41,036 bases of DNA, from NCBI RefSeq assembly GCF_944324745.1, contig NZ_CALUXO010000021.1, forward strand, positions 1-41,036. Direction: 5' to 3'. The number at the start of each line of letters is the position of its first letter. The stretch's first letter is position 1. The notes beneath the pieces are model-generated. The model was not told where the DNA came from, made no database searches, and saw only the letters and a list, made by a program, of their open reading frames with translations. This DNA comes from an uncultured Thomasclavelia sp. GTDB taxonomy: Bacteria; Bacillota_I; Bacilli_A; Erysipelotrichales; Coprobacillaceae. This document shows positions 3,859 to 40,600 of this stretch, in pieces. A program made the position numbers and the translations under genes.

Positions 3859-6270
3859 TTATAAAGTTTGTTCAGTTCGTCCAATAATATCATCTTGAGT
3901 GGCTTTAGATAAAACATTGAAGAAAGCTGAATATCCAGCCACCCTAACAATCAAATCTTTATGTTTTTCTGGATGCTTTTGGGCATCGATTAAGGTTTCG
4001 CGCGAAACGACATTATATTGAACATGATATCCTTCTAGACGATTGAAGAAAGTTTTAATTAATAATTCTAATTTTTGTTTATTTTCTTCACTAGATAACA
4101 TTTGTGGTGTCACTTTTTGATTCAACAATACTCCACCTGTAATTTCATGTGTTGGTAATTTAGAAACTGATTTAAAGACTGCTGTTGGTCCTTTTTTATC
4201 AAGACTATGAGCTGGCGAACATCCTTCAGCTAAAGGACTATGGGCCTTACGTCCATCTGGAGTAGCCATAGTACCATAACCTTGTCCGACATTAGCAGAA
4301 ATAGATGATGTTCCTGCATAACGAATTCCCCCAATTGGTCCTCTGCCATAACGAGTATTAGGATATTTCTTCATTTCATCAATATAGCTATCATAAGCTG
4401 TTACGACTAATTGATCTACATAATCATCATCATTACCATATTTAGGAGCTTCATTAATCAGCATTTTTTGAATCTCCTGACTTTCTGGACTAGTAAAATC
4501 ATCCAATAATGCATCCCATAATTGTTGCTTAGTAATTTTCTTTTCTTCAAATACTAGTTTTTTAATTGCCGCTAAACTGTCCGCCATATTGGCAATTCCA
4601 ACTTGTAACCCTGAAATATAATCATAGATTGCGCCACCTTCTTTTATTGTTTTACCACGACCAATACAATCTTGGGTCAATGTTGAACATAAAATATCTG
4701 GCACTTCTCTTTCTGAAGCTAGATCAATAGCATTTTCAACAATAACGCTCATTCGTGTTAATTCTCGAACTACTTGATCCCAGGCTGCCATCAATTCATC
4801 AAAAGAATTCATTTCGGTAAAATATCCACATTCTTTGACAAAACGTTTACCCGAAGTCATGTCAATGCCATTATTCATTGCAATCAATAAAATTCTTGGG
4901 AAATTCATATAACTCATTCCCGTACAACGATAACCCCATTTACCAGGAACTGCTGTTTCGACACAACCTATTGCTGAATAATCATAAGCATCTTCTTCTT
5001 TGACTCCTTTTTCAATAAAAGAAGGAATAATAACTTCATCATTATTAAAAGCTGGCATTCCCGTTCCTAGTTTCATTACTTCAATTGCTTCATCTAAAAA
5101 AGCTGGATCAATATTTCGATGATAACGAACTGTTAAATTTGGTTGTGGTAATCTAGTTTGAGCAACTGATTTTAATACTAAAAATGATAAACGATTGACA
5201 GCGTCCTTTTTATCAGTTGTTTGACCACCAATTGTAACATTTTGATACATCGGACTACCGGCACTAGAAAACGTATGTGATTGTGAGCGTACTTTATTGA
5301 TCGTTAAAGTTTTGATCCACAAATTATCCAATAATTCAACAACTTTTTCTTCATCAATAATACCATTAGTAATATCCTTATTAAAATAAGGATACATATA
5401 TTGATCAAAACGTCCATATGATAATGAATGTCCATTAGATTCAATTTGCAAGATTAATTGGATAAACCAGACAGCCTGAATGGCTTCATGAAAAGATTCA
5501 GCTGGATAATATGGTACTTTTTTACAGATACGACTTATTTCTAATAATTCTTGTTTTCTAGTTTCTCCAACATCATTAGCCAAGGTTAAAGCTAAATCAC
5601 TAAAGCGCTTTGCAAAATTTTTAACAGCATTAATAACGATTAAAACAGCTCGATAAAAATGATACTTATCAATATTTTCAGCGACACATAAATCTAAACT
5701 TTCTTTTAATTTCAAAACTCTTTTTTCATAACCAACTAATCCCGTTTCTAGTAACTGCTTATAATCAACAGCTAAATGAGCATCTCCGGAATTCAATTTA
5801 CCTTCCATTCCAAAAAAACCAGTTTCCATAAAAACACTTACTTCTTCAGGTAATAGCGCTTCCCCTGTTGCTCTTAAATTATTGTTTTCCCAAAATGGAG
5901 CTATTTTCCGTAAAGCCTCTTTAGTTTCTTCAGTGATATAAAAAACATCACCATCACGTTTTTCAAATAAATCTAATTCATCAATAACGAATTTCATCGT
6001 ATATTCAGGAAAAATAGGAGCATCACGATTAGAAGCTGCTTGGTTCCCAACGATTAAAGTTTCATCTTCAATATAAATTGGCATTTTTTCTAAAATATTT
6101 TGCAACATTAAAGCTCGTTTAATTACAATTGGCTGATTTTGATATTTTTGATAAGCTTCAGTAGCTAAGATAGCTCTGGTAGCATCAATATATGGTTTTT
6201 TATCTAAAACTGCTTCTCTAAAATCATTCATACGTGGTGTTAAGTCACCAAAATGTTCAACGTTTTTCAT
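3859..6270 (-). CDS. Glycyl radical enzyme of the YbiW type (annotated as formate acetyltransferase-like)
   Basis: An 803-residue glycyl radical enzyme. The catalytic Cys is Cys436 in SAIGCVETAVPGKWGYRCTG and the radical site is Gly779 in RVAGYSAFF. True pyruvate formate-lyase has two adjacent Cys; here there is one, followed by Val-Glu as in the dehydratase/lyase branch, so it is not a classical PflB. The wording around both motifs and the stretch YGRGPIGGIRYAGTSSISANV closely resemble E. coli YbiW as I remember it. I recall a report that YbiW opens the ring of 1,5-anhydroglucitol 6-phosphate; I cannot check this here. The Gly is activated by a radical SAM enzyme, encoded divergently at 6450. 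The start is supported by GGAGG before the ATG. Such enzymes are destroyed by oxygen, which indicates an anaerobe. Confidence 0.9.
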   Translation of the reverse strand: MKNVEHFGDLTPRMNDFREAVLDKKPYIDATRAILATEAYQKYQNQPIVIKRALMLQNILEKMPIYIEDETLIVGNQAASNRDAPIFPEYTMKFVIDELDLFEKRDGDVFYITEETKEALRKIAPFWENNNLRATGEALLPEEVSVFMETGFFGMEGKLNSGDAHLAVDYKQLLETGLVGYEKRVLKLKESLDLCVAENIDKYHFYRAVLIVINAVKNFAKRFSDLALTLANDVGETRKQELLEISRICKKVPYYPAESFHEAIQAVWFIQLILQIESNGHSLSYGRFDQYMYPYFNKDITNGIIDEEKVVELLDNLWIKTLTINKVRSQSHTFSSAGSPMYQNVTIGGQTTDKKDAVNRLSFLVLKSVAQTRLPQPNLTVRYHRNIDPAFLDEAIEVMKLGTGMPAFNNDEVIIPSFIEKGVKEEDAYDYSAIGCVETAVPGKWGYRCTGMSYMNFPRILLIAMNNGIDMTSGKRFVKECGYFTEMNSFDELMAAWDQVVRELTRMSVIVENAIDLASEREVPDILCSTLTQDCIGRGKTIKEGGAIYDYISGLQVGIANMADSLAAIKKLVFEEKKITKQQLWDALLDDFTSPESQEIQKMLINEAPKYGNDDDYVDQLVVTAYDSYIDEMKKYPNTRYGRGPIGGIRYAGTSSISANVGQGYGTMATPDGRKAHSPLAEGCSPAHSLDKKGPTAVFKSVSKLPTHEITGGVLLNQKVTPQMLSSEENKQKLELLIKTFFNRLEGYHVQYNVVSRETLIDAQKHPEKHKDLIVRVAGYSAFFNVLSKATQDDIIGRTEQTL

Positions 6271-6285
6271 TTGTTACCTCCATAA

Positions 6286-6297
6286 TTTCATTTGAAA
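6286..6297. promoter_or_regulatory. Operator-like inverted repeat, copy 1
   Basis: TTTCATTTGAAA has inverted arms TTTCA/TGAAA with a 2-base centre. It lies in the predicted 5' leader of the glycyl radical enzyme transcript. An identical copy is at 6381-6392, centre to centre 95 bases, close to nine helical turns. Confidence 0.55.
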
Positions 6298-6323
6298 CTT
6301 ATTACAACTTATTAACTGCTTAT

Positions 6324-6351
6324 ATAATAGCATTAATTATTATTTAGTCAA
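6324..6351 (-). promoter_or_regulatory. Promoter of the glycyl radical enzyme gene
   Basis: On the minus strand TTGACT (6346-6351) and TATTAT (6324-6329) are separated by 16 bases, placing the start of transcription near 6316, between the two operator copies. Confidence 0.65.
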
Positions 6352-6380
6352 GTAAATATTTCAAAAATAACTATTTTTTC

Positions 6381-6392
6381 TTTCATTTGAAA
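6381..6392. promoter_or_regulatory. Operator-like inverted repeat, copy 2
   Basis: Exact copy of the TTTCATTTGAAA element at 6286. A third, diverged version (TTTCATTCGTAA, 8 of 12 identical) is at 6405-6416, within the likely promoter of the activase gene. Confidence 0.55.
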
Positions 6393-6399
6393 TTATTTG

Positions 6400-6427
6400 T
6401 TTACTTTCATTCGTAATCATGTTAATA
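6400..6427 (+). promoter_or_regulatory. Weak candidate promoter of the activase gene
   Basis: TTTACT (6400-6405) and TTAATA (6422-6427) with a 16-base spacer. The diverged third repeat (6405-6416) overlaps the spacer, so a bound regulator could block it. Other -10 choices (TATCAT, 6426-6431) are possible. Confidence 0.35.
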
Positions 6428-6449
6428 TCATAGATAAGGAAGTGAAAAT

Positions 6450-7346
6450 ATGTGCCAGGGAATAATTTTTAATCTCCAAAAATTTAGTATTCATGATGGA
6501 CCAGGAATTCGGACAACGATCTTTTTTAAGGGCTGTCCTTTAAGATGTCAATGGTGTTCTAATCCTGAATCGCAACTAGAAAAAGTTCAAATTTTATGTG
6601 ATTACCAAAAATGTCTTCATTGCTTAAACTGTCTGAATAACTGTCCTAAGCAGGCAATTAGCTTAAGCAACGATCAAATTGTTATCGACGATCAAAAATG
6701 TGTTGGTTGTTTAAAATGTGTTGCTAGCTGTAATAGTGAAGCCTTAAGCTATGAAGGTAGAGTAAGTGAAATCGACACCATCGTTGAAGAATGTTTACAA
6801 GACATAGATTTTTATTTAGAATCTAATGGTGGTATTACTATTTCTGGTGGTGAAGCGATGATGCAGCCCCAGTTTTTAAAACAACTAGTCTTAACTTTAA
6901 AAAAGCATCAGTTGCATGTAGCAATTGAGACTACCGGTTATGCAAACCCAAAAATCTTTAGCGAATTAGCACCGTTATTTGATTTACTTTTATTTGATGT
7001 TAAACATGTAGATGATCATAAACACCGATGTAAAACCGGGGTTTCCAATGAACAAATCAAAGCCAATTTAAAATGGGCTGTTGAAAATAATCTTAATGTG
7101 CTACCAAGAATTCCCGTTATTCCTGATTTCAATGAAACACTTGATGACGCTAAAGAGATAGCTACATATCTACAATCAATTAATTTAAATAAATGCCAAT
7201 TATTACCTTTTCATCAATTTGGTGAAAAAAAATATCAATTGTTGAACCGTCAATATGACTACCAGCAAATACCAGCTTTACATCCTGAAGATCTCAAGGA
7301 ATATCAGCAAATATTTATTGACCAAGGAATTGATTGCTTCTTTTAA
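6450..7346 (+). CDS. Glycyl radical enzyme activase (radical SAM, two ferredoxin-type clusters)
   Basis: A 298-residue activating enzyme that uses S-adenosylmethionine and a [4Fe-4S] cluster to place the radical on the partner Gly. The radical SAM motif CX3CX2C is Cys29, Cys33 and Cys36 in FKGCPLRCQWCSNPE. An inserted ferredoxin-like domain carries two further clusters: Cys55/58/61/65 (CLHCLNCLNNC) and Cys84/87/90/94 (CVGCLKCVASC). This extra domain is typical of activases for the glycerol dehydratase/HPAD/YbiW-type enzymes and is missing from the PflB activase. ISGGEAMMQP is the usual SAM-binding GGE motif. AAGGAAGTG precedes the ATG. It is divergent from its presumed substrate enzyme at 3859-6270, so expression can be shared through the common control region. 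Confidence 0.93.
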   Translation: MCQGIIFNLQKFSIHDGPGIRTTIFFKGCPLRCQWCSNPESQLEKVQILCDYQKCLHCLNCLNNCPKQAISLSNDQIVIDDQKCVGCLKCVASCNSEALSYEGRVSEIDTIVEECLQDIDFYLESNGGITISGGEAMMQPQFLKQLVLTLKKHQLHVAIETTGYANPKIFSELAPLFDLLLFDVKHVDDHKHRCKTGVSNEQIKANLKWAVENNLNVLPRIPVIPDFNETLDDAKEIATYLQSINLNKCQLLPFHQFGEKKYQLLNRQYDYQQIPALHPEDLKEYQQIFIDQGIDCFF

Positions 7347-7932: not shown

Positions 7933-9258
7933 TTAATTACCTTGTTCCAATAAATATTCTTTATCAATCGCTTTAATAAATGGCAAATAAATGAAGACTC
8001 CTAAAATAATCAATAAGATCTGTAAAATTGATCCTTGCCATCCACTAGCTAAAAAGCCAGAAATAATAGGTGGTGTCGTCCATGGTAAAATAACCCCATT
8101 GGTTATAGGTACTAAACCTATTAACATTACAACATAACTAATAATAATATTAATTAGTGGTGTCAATATAAATGGAATTGCCAATGTCGGATTTAAAACA
8201 ATTGGTAAACCAAAAATAACTGGTTCGTTAATTCCAAAAATACCTGGCAAGATTGCTAATTTACCTAATTGTTTAATTCGTTTTGACTTACAGAAGAAAA
8301 ACATTGCAATCAACAAAGATAAAGTCGATCCACCACCGCCAAAAGTCGCAAATAAATCTTGGAACTGTTGATTGATAATATGTGTTGGTGCTTGACCAGC
8401 AGCTACAGCTACTTGGTTTTCACTAGATAATACTAATAAAATAGGATTGAAGACCGCACCGGTAACATTAGTACCATGAATACCAAATAACCATAATACG
8501 TGAGCGATAAGATACACTAATAACATAGCCCCTAGTGAATCACCAATATTTTGTAATGGTGTTTGTAAGATCGTATAAACAAAAGTAAATGGATCATTCC
8601 ATGGTGTTAAAACAAATAGAATTCTAATCACCAAAAAGAAAATTACTACTAGCGCAATTGGAATCAAATCCGAAAATGATTGACTGACTGTTGGTGGTAC
8701 CCCATCTGGCATTTTAATTGTCCAACCTTTATCGCTAATGTATTTATATAATAAAATAGAAATAAAAGCACAGATAATTCCAATGAAAATACCACGGGCT
8801 CCAACCCAATCAAGCGGAATACTAGAAACAGAAAATGGTACACTTCCTTCAGGCAATAAAGCAACAATACTGTCATCTGGTGTAAAAGATGTGGTAAATG
8901 GCATTAATACAAACCAGGTAACGATTGCTGTGATTCCCCCAGAAGCTGGATTAATTCCTTCTTGTTTAGCAAAATTCATTCCAATTCCATAAACAATAAA
9001 AACTGCCATGATTGAAACCGTTACTGTTGATGGAATCGAAAGCAATGTAGCAAGTGACTGACCGTTAAGTGTAGTATTCGCTAACCAATCAGTCCAAGCT
9101 GTAATTGGAAAATTAGTAATCAAAGTAAAAAATGATCCAACAATTAATAATGGCATAGCTAGAGTCATTCCATCACGTAATGCAACGAGATATTTGTTTT
9201 GTCCTATCACACTAGCTATCGGCATTAATTTGTCTTCAAATTTGTCCATTAAGCTCAT
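7933..9258 (-). CDS. PTS EIIC permease, lactose/cellobiose family (first copy)
   Basis: A 441-residue multi-pass membrane permease of the CelB/LacE type. It starts MSLMDKFEDKLMPIASVIGQ, with the family's DGMTLAMPLLIVGS, IPLDWVGARGIF and LPGIFGINEPVIFGLPIVLN motifs (the last holds the substrate-binding Asn-Glu-Pro segment). It forms the sugar channel and needs EIIA and EIIB, neither of which is in this window. A TTG 10 codons upstream keeps the frame open, but AAGGGGG sits 8 bases before the ATG at 9258, so I take that start. It follows the RDD gene by 44 bases and is probably co-transcribed with it. Being near the glycyl radical enzyme (about 1.7 kb from EIIC stop to GRE start), it might bring in that enzyme's substrate; this is speculation. 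Near-identical in type to the EIIC at 27283. Confidence 0.93.
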   Translation of the reverse strand: MSLMDKFEDKLMPIASVIGQNKYLVALRDGMTLAMPLLIVGSFFTLITNFPITAWTDWLANTTLNGQSLATLLSIPSTVTVSIMAVFIVYGIGMNFAKQEGINPASGGITAIVTWFVLMPFTTSFTPDDSIVALLPEGSVPFSVSSIPLDWVGARGIFIGIICAFISILLYKYISDKGWTIKMPDGVPPTVSQSFSDLIPIALVVIFFLVIRILFVLTPWNDPFTFVYTILQTPLQNIGDSLGAMLLVYLIAHVLWLFGIHGTNVTGAVFNPILLVLSSENQVAVAAGQAPTHIINQQFQDLFATFGGGGSTLSLLIAMFFFCKSKRIKQLGKLAILPGIFGINEPVIFGLPIVLNPTLAIPFILTPLINIIISYVVMLIGLVPITNGVILPWTTPPIISGFLASGWQGSILQILLIILGVFIYLPFIKAIDKEYLLEQGN

Positions 9259-9302
9259 GACATAAACCCCCTTTTTATTATCCACCAAAGATAAATCAAT
9301 CG

Positions 9303-11336: not shown

Positions 11337-11762
11337 TTATATTAAATTGTTACAAACTTTTTCCAATAATTCCTTAAATACAATAACTTCTTCCTCAGAC
11401 ATATTTTGCAACATTTGTCGTTCAAAATTAGCCATATTATACTTAGCTTCATTACAGCATTGAATACCAAATTGATTAATTCTTACGCGTTTAATCCGTT
11501 TATCATTAGGATCGGTAAATCCTTCTAACATCTTCTTTTTTTCTAAACGTAATACTAAACCAGCAACATTCGGCTGCGAGACTTGTAAGAGCTGTTCTAA
11601 TTTTTTTAATGATAATTCATTATTTGGTGCTTCAGTCAACAGCATCAAAGCACTTAATTGTGATAAAGTCAAATTATGTTTTCGCAAAGCATTATCAATA
11701 TTTCGAGAAAGTGCTAAATGTATCTGGCGAATCATCATGCCACATGGACTTTCGGGCCACAT
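11337..11762 (-). CDS. MarR family transcriptional regulator next to cfa
   Basis: A 141-residue winged-helix regulator. The DNA-binding part is LSLKKLEQLLQVSQPNVAGLVLRLEKK (about residues 50-76) followed by the wing with DPNDKRIKRVRI, and long N- and C-terminal helices form the dimer. The sequence has four Cys (PESPCG near the N-terminus, CC at about 101-102 and a C-terminal Cys), which could make it redox-responsive, but this is a guess. The start is ATG 11762: AAGGAG is 9 bases before it, while it abuts the ATG at 11771. Its likely targets are its own canonical promoter and cfa through the palindrome at 11278-11297. Confidence 0.9.
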   Translation of the reverse strand: MWPESPCGMMIRQIHLALSRNIDNALRKHNLTLSQLSALMLLTEAPNNELSLKKLEQLLQVSQPNVAGLVLRLEKKKMLEGFTDPNDKRIKRVRINQFGIQCCNEAKYNMANFERQMLQNMSEEEVIVFKELLEKVCNNLI

Positions 11763-11784
11763 ACAAATCATCTCCTTTGTCTCA

Positions 11785-11859: not shown

Positions 11860-11898
11860 TTTAAAAAAAGTTTAAGATTTATTAAAATCCTAAACTTT
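11860..11898 (-). terminator. Terminator of the deoR-type gene
   Basis: AAAGTTTAAGATTT (11867-11880) pairs with the near-complement AATCCTAAACTTT (11886-11898), followed on the minus strand by TTTTAAAA. The stem overlaps the last codons of the gene. Confidence 0.8.
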
Positions 11899-12636
11899 AA
11901 CGACATTAATATTCTTCTCTTGTAAATATGTTTCAAATTTTGAACTAATATCTCCATCAGTAATTACGGTACTAACCTGGCTAAGAGATACCAAATTGAT
12001 TAATCCTTGTTGTCCAAACTTACGAGAATCAGTTAAAATAATTACCTGATTAGCTTGTTTGACCATATCCCGTACTGTTTCTCCACGCATATAATCACTA
12101 CCTGTAAAACCAGTTTTTTCATTAAAACCATCTACTCCTATAAATAGCTTATCAACATAAAAAGTTTCTAAACAAGCTTTGGTCATTGGTCCAACATTTA
12201 CTTGAGATTCCATTTGATATTCACCACCAAGTAAAATGATCTTTACACCACCATTTTTACGGACAAAATCAGCAATAAATGTTGAATTGGTAATAATGGT
12301 CACATTCTTTTTTTGTTTAGCAATTTCTAAGGCTAATAAAGCACAACAAGAACCAGATTCTATCATAATTGTTTCATTGTCTTCTACCATTTGGCATGCC
12401 CAAAGAGCAATCTTTTGCTTACTGTCATAACGATAAGCTAATCGATTATTAATATCATCATTTTCGTTTAACTTGGCATAGCCATGTTCACGAATTAAAA
12501 TTCCAGTACTTTCTAATTGATCTAAATCTTTTCTAATGGTTACCTGTGAAACTCCTAATAACTGGGATAGTTTACTAACTTCCACTTTTTTATCTTTCGT
12601 TAGTAAGTCTAATATTTTTGTATGTCTTTCATTCAT
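11890..12636 (-). CDS. DeoR family transcriptional regulator
   Basis: A 248-residue sugar-sensing repressor. The N-terminal DeoR helix-turn-helix is at residues 1-57 (MNERHTKILDLLTKDKKVEV, then SQVTIRKDLDQLESTG). The C-terminal ISOCOT effector domain has the typical ESGS and ITNS motifs (about 94 and 118), GGEY, and IGVDGFN. Family members bind phosphorylated sugars. The frame stays open 40 codons upstream, but the extension does not resemble the family, and a Shine-Dalgarno-like GGAAAGAG precedes ATG 12636. It is monocistronic with terminators on both sides, and no sugar gene abuts it, so its targets are unknown. Confidence 0.9.
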   Translation of the reverse strand: MNERHTKILDLLTKDKKVEVSKLSQLLGVSQVTIRKDLDQLESTGILIREHGYAKLNENDDINNRLAYRYDSKQKIALWACQMVEDNETIMIESGSCCALLALEIAKQKKNVTIITNSTFIADFVRKNGGVKIILLGGEYQMESQVNVGPMTKACLETFYVDKLFIGVDGFNEKTGFTGSDYMRGETVRDMVKQANQVIILTDSRKFGQQGLINLVSLSQVSTVITDGDISSKFETYLQEKNINVVKV

Positions 12637-12700
12637 AGCTATCACTCTTTCCATCAAAAGAATATCATAATCCTTTATTAAAAGCAATTTTATGTCATTA

Positions 12701-12733
12701 AAAAAAGTTGCCAATACTATTAGCAACTTTTTT
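12701..12733 (-). terminator. Terminator of the OYE-type gene
   Basis: AAAAAAGTTGC (12701-12711) pairs perfectly with GCAACTTTTTT (12723-12733). Confidence 0.88.
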
Positions 12734-12764
12734 CGAAACATTTCACAATAAATCATAAATATTA

Positions 12765-14693
12765 TTAAATTTGTCTTGCAGCTACAAATCCTTCATGGAT
12801 TGCATCATAAATTTGCCGAACTTTAGTACAGTCTCCTACTCTAAATACCTCAACATCTAAATTATCTTCAATTTGATCAGCTAAACTATTTTGTGGTAAA
12901 AAGCCAGCTGCAATAACAACATCATCAACTACTATTTCAGTCTCATTGCCCCAACGATCAGTCAAAATCGCTTTATCATCTTCTAGAGCAATTAATCTTT
13001 TTCCAGTCATAACTTTAATATCTGTTTGTTGAATTGCCATCATATACGCCTGATTTGATGATGACATATTAGCTAAAAATTGATCAGCCATTTCCACAAC
13101 AGTGACTTCTTTACCAGCTTGATTTAATTCCAAAGCCGTTTCCGCACCAGTAATACCGCCACCGATTACAGCTACTTTATTGCCAGTTACTTTTACACTA
13201 CCATTTAAATAATCATTAGCATAAATTACTTGATCGGGTTTATTACCGCTAATTTTTAATTTTCTAGTCTTACCACCAACAGCAACTATCACTGCATCGT
13301 AATTTCCACTAGCGATTTTATCAAAATCTGCCTGTTCTTTAATCACTTTAATATGGGGGTTATTTTCAATATGATTTTGATAATATCTAATTAATCTTCG
13401 GATATTAGCTTTATTATCAGGTACAGCTGCTTCAATCATCATACCACCAATATCTCGCTTTTCATAAATAGTAACTTCATGTCCTCGCTTTGCCAGTGTT
13501 AAAGCTGCTTCACATCCAGCAGGTCCAGCTCCAATAATCGCAACATTTTTCTTAGTCTCGGCTGGAGTAATTTTAGGACATTCATATTTATATAACGTCG
13601 GATTCACTGTACAATGAATTGGAGTATGGGATAATAATCCCCGATCTAAACACCCAATCAAACAATTAATACATGGTTTAATATCTTCGCTGCGTCCTTC
13701 CTTAGCTTTTTTAGCCCAGGCTGGATCAGCTAATTGACTACGACCTAAAGCTACAAAATCACCACAACCTTCAGCAATTAAACTTTCAGCTTCTTCTGGA
13801 GTAAAAATATTATGTCCAATAAATACAGGTATATTAACAGCATCCTTTATCATTTTTGTTTGTTTAGCATTAAATGCATTAGGCAATAAAAATTCCCTTG
13901 CTGCTGTCGCATGAGTTCCACCCATTATATTTAAATGTGATACTCCTTCTTTTTCTAAAGCTTTAGCGACTTCAATCGTTTCTTCAATTCTAATTCCTTC
14001 AGGCTCCCAGTCTTCACTACTTAATTTAACACCGATTGGAAAATCTGGACCACATTTTTTCTTCATATCACGCACAATTTCTATTAAAAGACGCATCCGA
14101 TTATGTAAAGAACCTCCATACATATCATTACGCTTATTATCATGAGGTGATAAAAAGTTAGTCGGAATACAACCAGCTGCACCATGAAGCTCAACAATTT
14201 CAAAACCAGCTTTTTTACAGCGTAAAGCTGCATCACCAAATTTACTTACAAGATCATGGATTTCATCAATCGTCAATTCCCGTGGTAATTTAGCTCCCGC
14301 CTCATACCAGGGTTCAAAAGTGATGTTACTGGCACCAATTACATCTTCGCTACCAACAAATCCTGCATCACGACCTGGATGAGCCAATTGCATTCCTGGT
14401 ATCGCCCCATGCTGTTTTACTGCCTCAGCCAACAATGTTAATCCCGCTATAAATTCATCTGAGTCGGCTCTTAATCCACATGATGTCATTGGTACTGGAA
14501 CCGCATTATCCATAAAAATAAGACCAGCACCACCTTCAGCAGCTTCGGCATATGCTTTAATCTGACGATCAGTTACAGTACCATCAGGATTCCCTAAATA
14601 TGTTCCCATTGAATTACGGACAATTCGGTTTTTAATTATAACATTTCCAATTTTACCTTTTTGAAATAAATTAGGATAATATTTATTTCTCAT
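12765..14693 (-). CDS. NADH:flavin oxidoreductase, OYE/2,4-dienoyl-CoA reductase (FadH) type
   Basis: A 642-residue FMN/FAD/[4Fe-4S] ene-reductase. The OYE TIM barrel covers about 1-340, the cluster ligands are Cys341, Cys344, Cys348 and Cys361 (CX2CX3CX12C), and the FAD/NAD(P) half starts at VAIIGAGPAGCEAA (384-397) with a second dinucleotide fold VAVIGGGITGAE (about 507). Length and order match FadH, enoate reductase and the bile-acid reductases BaiCD/BaiH. The active site is unusual: where relatives have HxAHGYL or HxANGYL, this one reads HGAAGCI (170-176), so the proton-donating Tyr is Cys175 and the second substrate ligand is Ala173. The substrate is therefore hard to predict. AAAGGGGA precedes the ATG. 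A TetR gene is divergent, with a perfect palindrome and a canonical promoter between. Confidence 0.92.
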   Translation of the reverse strand: MRNKYYPNLFQKGKIGNVIIKNRIVRNSMGTYLGNPDGTVTDRQIKAYAEAAEGGAGLIFMDNAVPVPMTSCGLRADSDEFIAGLTLLAEAVKQHGAIPGMQLAHPGRDAGFVGSEDVIGASNITFEPWYEAGAKLPRELTIDEIHDLVSKFGDAALRCKKAGFEIVELHGAAGCIPTNFLSPHDNKRNDMYGGSLHNRMRLLIEIVRDMKKKCGPDFPIGVKLSSEDWEPEGIRIEETIEVAKALEKEGVSHLNIMGGTHATAAREFLLPNAFNAKQTKMIKDAVNIPVFIGHNIFTPEEAESLIAEGCGDFVALGRSQLADPAWAKKAKEGRSEDIKPCINCLIGCLDRGLLSHTPIHCTVNPTLYKYECPKITPAETKKNVAIIGAGPAGCEAALTLAKRGHEVTIYEKRDIGGMMIEAAVPDNKANIRRLIRYYQNHIENNPHIKVIKEQADFDKIASGNYDAVIVAVGGKTRKLKISGNKPDQVIYANDYLNGSVKVTGNKVAVIGGGITGAETALELNQAGKEVTVVEMADQFLANMSSSNQAYMMAIQQTDIKVMTGKRLIALEDDKAILTDRWGNETEIVVDDVVIAAGFLPQNSLADQIEDNLDVEVFRVGDCTKVRQIYDAIHEGFVAARQI

Positions 14694-14726
14694 AGTTTAT
14701 TCCCCTTTCTACTTTTTTCATTTATA

Positions 14727-14770: not shown

Positions 14771-14794
14771 AAATAGTTGCATATGCAACTATTT
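14771..14794. promoter_or_regulatory. 24-bp perfect palindrome, candidate TetR operator
   Basis: The half-site AAATAGTTGCAT is followed directly by its exact inverted copy, giving a 24-base perfect palindrome. It lies between the divergent OYE and TetR genes, 28 bases before the TetR start, and is well placed to control both. Confidence 0.8.
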
Positions 14795-14822: not shown

Positions 14823-15419
14823 ATGAAACAAGATTTAAGAATAACTAAGACCAAAACAAATATTGAAAACAAATTTATAGAACTACTAAAAAACAATTCA
14901 TTTGATGATATTACTATTAAATTACTTATTAGCGAATGTAAAATTAATCGCTCTACTTTTTATCGTAACTATGAAGATAAGTATGATTTACTTTATAAAA
15001 TAATCGAAAAACAACTTGGCCAATTTGAAAAAATAATTAATCCTCACTTTATTATTAACAACAGTCATAAATCAATTGACTTTAAACCATATTTTTTACC
15101 ATTATTAGACTATTTTGAAAAAAACAAAAATGAATTATTAATTTTAAATCACAATAAATTACCAATCAATATTTTCCACGAAATGTTTATTATTTATAGT
15201 AATTATCTAATTCATGAAATAGTTAGTTATTATCATATTACTAATAATCAAAAAATTAAACTTATAACCTATTATTGTCAAATAATCACTTCCAATATCC
15301 TAACTGCAATTAAGTGGTGGCATTTGGAAAGTCCAGAAACTAGTAAAAAAGAAATTTTATCAATGATTACTATTACCATTGTCAATGGTATTTATCCAAC
15401 TCTTCAAACACTTTATTAA
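14823..15419 (+). CDS. TetR/AcrR family transcriptional regulator
   Basis: A 198-residue regulator. The N-terminal TetR helix-turn-helix is at about residues 10-58 (TKTNIENKFIELLKN, then CKINRSTFYRNYEDKYDLLY), and the rest is a helical ligand and dimer domain with C-terminal helices like those of the TetR_C_7/DhaS-like group. TAAGGAG is 5 bases before the ATG. It is divergent from the OYE-type flavoenzyme and shares the 24-bp palindrome with it, so it probably represses that gene and itself until an inducer binds, perhaps the enzyme's substrate. It is very AT-rich and Asn/Ile/Lys-rich even for this window. Confidence 0.9.
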   Translation: MKQDLRITKTKTNIENKFIELLKNNSFDDITIKLLISECKINRSTFYRNYEDKYDLLYKIIEKQLGQFEKIINPHFIINNSHKSIDFKPYFLPLLDYFEKNKNELLILNHNKLPINIFHEMFIIYSNYLIHEIVSYYHITNNQKIKLITYYCQIITSNILTAIKWWHLESPETSKKEILSMITITIVNGIYPTLQTLY

Positions 15420-18323: not shown

Positions 18324-19263
<940 letters not shown>

Positions 19264-21617: not shown

Positions 21618-23822
21618 TTATTTTTCTATGGTAAGGAGATATTCTTGATAATTTTGGCTATCTTGTCCTAGACAAATCATCACTTTCCCGGCTTCAACTG
21701 TAAAATTCATGAATTCATCCCAAATAGCAAAATCTTCATATGTTAGCTTTATTTGAACATTTACCTTTGCTAATTTAGGAACAAATACTTTTTTAAATCC
21801 TTTTAATTCCAAGATTCGAACTACTATCGATGCATTTAGATGTTTTAAATACACTTGGATGACATCACTACCATCGATATTGCTTAAATTACAGATATCT
21901 AGTGAGATTTCTAATCCATCTTTTTTTAATTTGGAAATACTAATTGTTTTAGGAATAGATATGTTTTGGTAGACAAAATCACTATAACTTAATCCATAGC
22001 CAAATGGTAAAAGTGGTCCTGGCTTCAAATCAACATAGTCTTTTTGAGCCCCATTATATTTATGATTATAATAACAAGGTAAGGCCCCTACATGCCGCGG
22101 CAACGAAACTGATAAATGGCCACTAGGATTGTAATCTCCAAATAACACATCACTAATCCCATCACCACCACGAGCTCCAGGATAAAAACTGGCAATAACC
22201 GCTTTAGAATATTTCAATACTTGATCTATTACGTGAGGTCGTCCTTGGATTAAAACAGTAACAATATTAGAATTAACTTTACTAACTTCTTGCAACAATT
22301 GATTTTGATAACCCTCTAATTCTAGAGAAGCTAGATCAATATTTTCACCACAATTCATCTCATTATATTCTTGAATTTTCAAAGCTCCATTATTTTCAAA
22401 ATCATTTTGATATAATCGCGTACTATTACCACCTAAGACCATAACAACTACATCGGCTTCTTTAGCTATTTTTAGTGTTTGATCTAAATCTTCAAATTGT
22501 TTAAGCCTTGTAGTACACCCAAGTGCAAACATCGGTGGTGTTTTAGTCTTTTTAGCAATTCCCTGTAAAACAGTGACAATATCGTCAGCTTCTTGATAAG
22601 CGGTATAATCGCCTAATTGGTTTAAATAATTATGAGCATTAGGACCAATAACTGCAATTTTTTTATCAGTTGCAATTGGTAGAATCCGATTCTCGTTTTT
22701 TAATAGTACTTGACATTCTCTAGCACATTCAAGTAATAAATCATCACTTTCAGGTAAAGGGATATTTTTTGATGGTTTAAATAAACCAAGTTTTTCTTTT
22801 AATTTTAAAACTCTAATAACCGCCTGATCCAATTCCTTCTCTTGCAAATATCCAGATTTAATAGCATCATCTAATTTTAAATACACTTGATCCCAGAGAC
22901 TTAAGTCAACACCGGCTTTTAATGCTTTACTTCCCATTAATAAAGGATTATCATTCATTAATAAAAGACGATCTAAAGCACAGCCATCTGCCATCACAAT
23001 TCCATTAAAACCATATTCTTTTCTTAAAATATCATTTAACAGGTACTGATTTATATGACAAGGAATTCCATCAATTTCATTGTAAGCTGCCATTACAGCA
23101 CTGGCATTAGCCATAACAGCCGCTTTTACAGGTGGTAAATGAATTTCTCTTAGCTCCCGCATTCCAATATTAGCAGCATCAGAATTATGTCCTCCAACTC
23201 CAGCACCTTGACCGCATAAATGCTTAACAACTATCCCAACACTGTGATTATCTTTTTGAAATCCGGTAACCCCCGCTTTTACCATCTGACTAGTTAAATA
23301 AGGATCTTCACTAAAGCATTCTTCACTACGTCCCCAGCGGGGATCTCTTAGCACATCAAATCCAGTAAATAAAGCAAGATTACCACCTTTAGCTGCTAAT
23401 TCCTGACTGACATTTTGACTCACCTGTTCCATTAACTCTATGTTCCAGGTCATTCCCATAGCTAATTGTGTTGGAAACACCGCACTTTTTAAAGCCATAT
23501 GGCCATGAACACATTCTTCACTAATTAATGCGGGAATATTAAAGCGTGAATGTTTTTTGATGTAATCTTGGATCATTGTAATTACTTTTTTACTATCTTC
23601 GCGACTGATTCCATTATTTTTATCAATCTGTGACCAGGCATCAGCGCGCATAATACCATAAATTGCTCCAACGCCACCGAATTCTTTAACATGTTTTTTA
23701 AATGTCTCAGTCAATTCATAATGATCAGCTACTTTTTCAAAACATTGCCAGCCATATAAATGCTGATTTAACTGGCCAACTTTTTCTTTTAATGTCATTT
23801 GTTTTACAATTTCTTCTACCAT
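21618..23822 (-). CDS. Glycoside hydrolase family 3 (beta-glucosidase type), intracellular
   Basis: A 734-residue GH3 enzyme with the TIM barrel (about 1-345), the alpha/beta sandwich (about 360-580) and a C-terminal fibronectin III-like domain (about 640-730). The nucleophile is Asp279 in GIVMADGCALDR, and Lys200-His201 in VKHLCGQG bind substrate, as does RDPRWGRSEECFSEDPYL. There is no signal peptide, so it acts in the cytoplasm on imported sugars. Usual activities are beta-glucosidase, beta-xylosidase or similar. It ends the mannosidase gene run: the RpiR gene is 17 bases upstream in the same direction. AGGAAGAT precedes the ATG. Confidence 0.93.
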   Translation of the reverse strand: MVEEIVKQMTLKEKVGQLNQHLYGWQCFEKVADHYELTETFKKHVKEFGGVGAIYGIMRADAWSQIDKNNGISREDSKKVITMIQDYIKKHSRFNIPALISEECVHGHMALKSAVFPTQLAMGMTWNIELMEQVSQNVSQELAAKGGNLALFTGFDVLRDPRWGRSEECFSEDPYLTSQMVKAGVTGFQKDNHSVGIVVKHLCGQGAGVGGHNSDAANIGMRELREIHLPPVKAAVMANASAVMAAYNEIDGIPCHINQYLLNDILRKEYGFNGIVMADGCALDRLLLMNDNPLLMGSKALKAGVDLSLWDQVYLKLDDAIKSGYLQEKELDQAVIRVLKLKEKLGLFKPSKNIPLPESDDLLLECARECQVLLKNENRILPIATDKKIAVIGPNAHNYLNQLGDYTAYQEADDIVTVLQGIAKKTKTPPMFALGCTTRLKQFEDLDQTLKIAKEADVVVMVLGGNSTRLYQNDFENNGALKIQEYNEMNCGENIDLASLELEGYQNQLLQEVSKVNSNIVTVLIQGRPHVIDQVLKYSKAVIASFYPGARGGDGISDVLFGDYNPSGHLSVSLPRHVGALPCYYNHKYNGAQKDYVDLKPGPLLPFGYGLSYSDFVYQNISIPKTISISKLKKDGLEISLDICNLSNIDGSDVIQVYLKHLNASIVVRILELKGFKKVFVPKLAKVNVQIKLTYEDFAIWDEFMNFTVEAGKVMICLGQDSQNYQEYLLTIEK

Positions 23823-40135: not shown

Positions 40136-40600
40136 TTAATTTCCTTCAATGATTATTAATGTTTGATCATATTCAACTAAATCTTCAGTTTTAGCTAAAA
40201 TTGCGCTAACCGTTCCATCAATTGGTGATTTAATTTCGTTCATAACTTTCATTGCTTCTACAATACATAATACTTGTCCAGCCTTAACTTTACTTCCAAC
40301 TTCAACATATGGTTTTGCAGTTGGTGAACTAGCGGCATAGAAAACCCCAACGATTGGTGATTTAACAGGTGTACCACTAACTTCCGGTTCCTTTTCTTCT
40401 GTTGTTTCAGCAGTATTATTAGTTACAGGCTGTTGCATAGGCATAGTTGGGTATTGAGCCATTGGCGCACTAACTACATTTACCGGTGCTGCTGGTTCTT
40501 TTTCTAATTCTAATTTTATATCATCAATTTCTACTTTCATTTTGAAAACATCAGAGTTTTCAAATTCAGTAATTAATTGTTTTACTAAATCAATTTTCAT
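40136..40600 (-). CDS. accB: Acetyl-CoA carboxylase biotin carboxyl carrier protein
   Basis: A 154-residue carrier. The C-terminal biotinyl domain has the biotinylated Lys118 in EAMKVMNEI; the middle (about 46-80) is a flexible Pro/Ala/Gln/Thr-rich linker; PIVGVFYAASSPTAKPYVEVG includes the thumb typical of the acetyl-CoA carboxylase form. AAGGAGG is 7 bases before ATG 40600; the reading frame is open 9 codons upstream but that part includes the ribosome binding site. Biotin is attached by BirA (17541-18236). Confidence 0.95.
   Translation of the reverse strand: MKIDLVKQLITEFENSDVFKMKVEIDDIKLELEKEPAAPVNVVSAPMAQYPTMPMQQPVTNNTAETTEEKEPEVSGTPVKSPIVGVFYAASSPTAKPYVEVGSKVKAGQVLCIVEAMKVMNEIKSPIDGTVSAILAKTEDLVEYDQTLIIIEGN

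Follow-up and report, generated by a model that had tools for sequence, protein, structure and literature searches.

Gene content of the locus

The window, i.e. the whole 41,036-nucleotide stretch of DNA that was analysed, comes from the genome of a relative of Thomasclavelia/Erysipelatoclostridium-type gut bacteria. It contains a glycyl radical enzyme (GRE) gene of the YbiW type on the minus strand (3859–6270; 803 aa; TIGR01774, 934 bits) and, divergent from it on the plus strand, the gene of the radical-SAM activase of the GRE (6450–7346; 298 aa; TIGR02494, 332 bits), which is its conserved partner. The two genes are separated by an intergenic region of 179 bp. The GRE carries a GCVE active site at residue 435 and an RVAGY motif. 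Its assignment to the YbiW type follows from the presence of the GCxE active site and from its greater identity to E. coli YbiW (51%) than to PflD (36%), and the nearest PDB chains are 6xs4 and those of YbiW (8id7/8yjn). In a passage of PMC12441222 that cites Ma et al. (2024), YbiW is reported to cleave 1,5-anhydroglucitol-6-phosphate.

Two divergent promoters can be recognized between the genes. The probable GRE promoter (6324–6351, minus strand) has an extended −10 and reads TTGACT-16-TATTAT; 51 of the 54 relatives share its −35, which appears as GTCAA on the plus strand. The probable activase promoter (6400–6428, plus strand) was read from the sequence as TTTACT-17-TAATAT; −10-like elements resembling its own are present in most relatives.

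Near the activase, a lactose/cellobiose-type PTS IIC gene (7933–9288) encodes a protein with 35% identity to the IIC of the streptococcal GRE operon and could be the importer of the sugar of this pathway. No FsaA-like aldolase gene is adjacent to the GRE, and the sole match in the genome (37%) lies on another contig (C86), where a second activase gene stands beside a fructose-6-phosphate-aldolase-like gene. That locus (21900–23491), which has no operator sites matching above 7 bits, is probably a second GRE system. At 18683–19222, the window contains what is likely a broken gene, a glycoside hydrolase family 1 fragment that covers only positions 164–339 of the 453 in the profile.

Putative operators in the intergenic region

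The intergenic region contains three putative operators, all on the plus strand and scored here with the weight matrix (PWM) described below. Operator A (GRE-proximal; 6286–6297; TTTCATTTGAAA; 19.9 bits) lies next to the RBS, at about +26 relative to the inferred start of GRE transcription. Operator B (activase-proximal; 6381–6392; TTTCATTTGAAA; 19.0 bits) lies 95 bp from operator A, upstream of the −35 elements of both promoters and ∼47 bp upstream of the activase start. Operator C (6405–6416; TTTCATTCGTAA; 19.3 bits) lies 24 bp from operator B, slightly off the common helical phase, and sits between the −35 and −10 of the probable activase promoter. A preliminary description of this DNA had reported two identical 12-bp words at this distance, a third, diverged copy within the activase promoter and a GRE promoter between the identical words, and our analysis bears out each of these observations.

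A degenerate form of the word, TTTCRTTYGWAA, matches only at the three sites in the 41-kb window, compared with a mean of 0.19 matches in shuffled windows, and none of 100 shuffles reached three. The 2.76-Mb genome as a whole has 15 matches to the degenerate word, no excess over its control (16), and seven copies of TTTCATTTGAAA itself. ORF maps place nearly all of the remaining genomic matches to the degenerate word within open reading frames. The signal is therefore the local clustering and not the word itself. A genome-wide regulon in this organism was rejected because the other exact matches, too, are nearly all inside reading frames. A 17-bit match at 40234 was taken as chance, since it falls within a coding frame, on codons for a conserved biotinyl domain (MNEIKSPIDG).

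Other palindromes were also seen. A 20-bp perfect palindrome, ATAGTTGCATATGCAACTAT, occurs at 14773–14792, between a gene for a BaiCD/bilirubin-reductase-like flavoenzyme (12765–14693, minus strand) and a divergent gene for a TetR-like regulator (14823–15419, plus strand), of which it is probably the operator. A site at 14716, upstream of the same flavoenzyme gene, scores only 9.3 bits with the PWM. Furthermore, a search of the genome for TTTCANNTGAAA found four TTTCACGTGAAA palindromes within 6 kb of contig C71 (at 7466, 8331, 10469 and 13093), which possibly constitute a separate regulon.

Conservation and helical phasing among relatives

Divergent GRE/activase pairs with a short intergenic region are present in records of Erysipelotrichaceae-type bacteria, Lachnospiraceae, Oscillospiraceae, Selenomonas, Atopobiaceae and Treponema. 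From 59 distinct divergent intergenic regions we kept 54 that share little sequence (Bacillota, Actinomycetota and one spirochaete) and derived from them a PWM with the consensus TTCTTTCATTCGTAACTT. At a threshold of 9 bits, the PWM has 100 matches in the 54 intergenic regions, compared with 0.4 in shuffled and one in reversed sequences; these counts are not independent because the relatives share ancestry, and the shuffles, not the scores, serve as the control because the PWM was trained on the same intergenic regions that it scores. Matches on the opposite strand number only 11, as expected from palindromic copies. The repeat noted in the preliminary description thus recurs as ∼100 copies in non-redundant intergenic regions, nearly all of them on one strand. 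Its inverted symmetry, which had been described as the feature, is incidental: most relatives carry an asymmetric TTTCATTCGTAAC in one fixed orientation, and we rejected a perfect palindrome as essential.

The distances between copies fall at 21–24, 70–74 or 92–97 bp, i.e. about two, seven or nine helical turns, with little in between. The spacing of about nine turns pointed out earlier for the window is therefore conserved, with 70–74 bp as an alternative. Relative to the GRE −35, the sites occupy slots at about −55, −44, −33, +18, +29, +39 and +51. The slot of operator B (+37 to +42) is the most conserved, with 37 sites in the 54 intergenic regions; that of operator A (−54 to −57) holds 27 sites, and the slot of operator C is occupied in few relatives. 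The slots fit a single phase of 10.5 bp (R = 0.81 over sites; cluster-level p = 0.0008), as expected for DNA-looping DeoR repressors; in the window, operator C deviates from this phase. When 296 class members were searched without bias for site pairs 71–98 bp apart, five places emerged, four of which are at GRE/activase genes. In one locus of another family (L164, 1501–1584), two TTTCATTTGAAACTATTATT copies 72 bp apart precede a MarR-type gene and a permease gene, with no GRE nearby.

Judged by this conservation, the predicted sites are very probably real operators. Jumps of two helical turns in spacing between lineages would be hard to explain without a constraint on phase. The sites could nevertheless be independent operators of the same regulator that form no loop, with a spacing that reflects the fixed layout of the divergent promoters. 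We regard this reading as a serious contender, somewhat short of an even chance; it concerns a sub-question of the explanation preferred below and overlaps with it in likelihood. Every site lies where a simple repressor would act, namely in the GRE start region or upstream of and inside the activase promoter, and some relatives have only a single strong site (L016, L050 and L070). By contrast, neither the jumps between 70–74 and 92–97 bp nor a single helical phase across divergent sequences is needed for sites that act independently.

A YciT-type DeoR protein as the probable regulator

The preliminary description assigned the sites to an unknown regulator and stated that no regulator gene adjoins them. 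Our results contradict both points and indicate a probable binder, a YciT-type DeoR-family protein encoded on the minus strand of the same window (11890–12756), 4.5 kb downstream of the activase with several genes between. In most relatives, its ortholog directly adjoins the activase or GRE gene. The open frame begins at 12756, and homology starts from the Met at 12636, a conserved start, which gives a coding region of 11893–12636. Membership in the DeoR family is indicated by PF08220 (59.2 bits, cut-off 21) and PF00455 (DeoRC; 155.8 bits, cut-off 31.8). The YciT equivalog NF040887 is the best NCBIfam model, although its score of 219.8 bits is below the cut-off of 450. Compared with six of the DeoR paralogs of E. 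coli, the regulator is closest to YciT (40% identity, 187 bits), followed by SrlR (114 bits) and AgaR (105 bits), which places it in a YciT clade in the wider sense, as closer to YciT than to the other paralogs tested. In the tree, YciT groups next to the clade of the regulator, with an uncertain exact join because the outgroup branches and the YciT branch are long. The wing motif RxHG[YFA]A is present in 74 of 80 orthologs and also in YciT. With the regulator as query, the PDB yielded no match at E 0.001.

Around GRE/activase genes, 80 good matches to DeoR-family orthologs were found over 104 loci, some of which are from the same genomes. Of 40 related genomes, that of the window among them, 24 encode a close activase; all but one of these (23) also encode the regulator, which is missing from the 16 others (Fisher p = 3e-10). 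In the one exception (G017), a contig end lies beside the activase. When the window's own genome was searched with the N-terminal domain of a relative's regulator, the single match was at 11890–12756 on the minus strand.

The regulator gene may also contain sites of its own. A possible weak auto-operator (TTTCATTCATAG, 10.9 bits; 12627–12638, plus strand) overlaps its start codon; the same place scores 17–19 bits in three relatives, and the M-N-E-R codons explain part of the match. A possible second weak site (TTTCGTTAGTAA, 12.4 bits; 12595–12606, plus strand) lies inside the gene, 32 bp from the first, and a window of this size should contain about one such site by chance. In streptococci and several other bacteria, autoregulation is likely.

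The same DNA word is found at the YbiW/YbiY genes of E. coli, as would be expected of a YciT-type clade: the ybiU-ybiV-ybiW-ybiY-fsaA region has three sites of 19–22 bits, all intergenic and each TTTCATTCGAAA. By ChIP-exo, YciT was located upstream of ybiUVWY and fsaA with a palindromic motif, and deletion of yciT changed the expression of ybiV, ybiY and fsaA (PMC8464067). YciT is also enriched near −5 of the ybiY promoter, with anaerobic expression (PMC12132413).

On this evidence from gene neighbourhood and motif, we consider the YciT-type DeoR protein (11893–12636) the probable regulator of the sites. A different binder, namely the MarR protein encoded at 11337–11771, Rex, FNR or CcpA, seems very improbable. 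The two TTTCATTTGAAA copies that lie without a GRE beside a MarR gene in the other family show that such palindromes are not private to one regulator type. However, the DeoR protein is the only one that we found repeatedly next to the GRE and activase genes and co-occurring with them across genomes, and Rex, FNR and CcpA boxes presumably do not match the consensus of the sites. E. coli YciT, moreover, binds promoter regions with the same motif (PMC8464067). Chance resemblance of the repeats within an A+T-rich intergenic region has a practically negligible likelihood as an explanation: the lack of genome-wide enrichment of the word alone would agree with it, but the absence of three matches in any of 100 shuffles and the conservation and phasing across phyla speak against it, and the footprint refutes it.

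Proposed mechanism

Taken together, we are confident, if short of certain, that the three words are operators of the YciT-type DeoR repressor, which would respond to a phosphosugar and block both divergent promoters. From the observed sites, their conservation and phasing and the co-occurrence of the regulator, we infer binding in the window's organism and a course of repression, ligand response and looping as follows. When the ligand is absent, the repressor would sit on operator A, just beyond the point where GRE transcription starts, as well as on operator B, upstream of the activase promoter, and operator C, within it. Both promoters would thus be blocked, so that enzyme and activase would be made together only with substrate present. 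Joint control of the two genes by one operator set, proposed in the preliminary description, is strongly supported by the conservation in relatives. DeoR-family proteins respond to phosphorylated sugars, and the ligand is probably such a sugar, perhaps 1,5-anhydroglucitol-6-phosphate, the compound that YbiW reportedly cleaves.

Because the sites lie on the same face of the DNA at whole-turn distances, a small loop across the GRE promoter could form between oligomers bound at operators A and B. E. coli DeoR loops between its operators in vivo (loopometer; PMC8053113), which makes such bridging a reasonable inference. By this analogy, a DNA loop between operators A and B is plausible.

The regulator might instead act in two ways, repressing the GRE from operator A and activating (or also repressing) the activase from operator B. 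Operator B occupies the most conserved slot, just upstream of the activase −35, and activation at one promoter is conceivable because YciT is annotated as a dual regulator in E. coli. However, operator C, between the −35 and −10 of the activase, is in a repressing position, and at E. coli ybiY the binding of YciT is near −5 (PMC12132413). We therefore regard dual action as unlikely relative to repression of both promoters.

Wider implications

More broadly, YciT-type DeoR proteins might be dedicated phosphosugar-sensing repressors of radical anhydrosugar degradation in Bacillota, Actinomycetota, Spirochaetota and Proteobacteria. In Bacillota, the 180-bp divergent promoter shared by enzyme and activase would be folded into a loop of nine (or seven) turns by a helically phased array of several operators. 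This general proposal is tentative, and we give it slightly less than an even chance of holding in full. If true, it would make the ‘osmolarity’ role that has been proposed for E. coli YciT a secondary one. In the literature searched, we found no description of the phased operator geometry or of its cross-phylum distribution. An oddity of a single window thereby leads to a cross-phylum regulon prediction, in which a probable regulator is named for a widespread GRE pathway of gut bacteria, and the operator word and geometry are precise enough for gel-shift testing. It also offers a candidate ligand and a conserved physiological role for YciT, a poorly defined E. coli y-gene regulator.

Comparison with known systems

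The YciT regulon of E. coli K-12 (PMC8464067 and PMC12132413) resembles the system described here in its DeoR-family regulator, its YbiW-type GRE with an activase and the TTTCATTCGAAA word in promoter regions. It differs in that three intergenic regions each have one strong site, whereas the window has several phased sites in a single region. Moreover, yciT is unlinked in E. coli, and the GRE and activase genes are codirectional there but divergent in the window.

E. coli DeoR with deoO1, O2 and OE (PMC8053113) is likewise a DeoR-family protein with several spaced operators. However, its spacings are ∼300–600 bp and it controls nucleoside catabolism; in the window, operators A and B are only 95 bp apart and looping would be by analogy.

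The streptococcal locus of activase, DeoR, PTS and GRE-aldolase-dehydrogenase genes shares an orthologous GRE (74%), the activase, a DeoR protein and the site. In streptococci, by contrast, the site is mostly flanked by the activase and regulator genes, which are divergent there, and the GRE is in a PTS operon. Loss of gldA from the pflD-mipB-gldA operon of Streptococcus pyogenes raises expression of the other operon genes (PMC10210942). This effect would fit induction by a pathway intermediate that acts on a YciT-type regulator.
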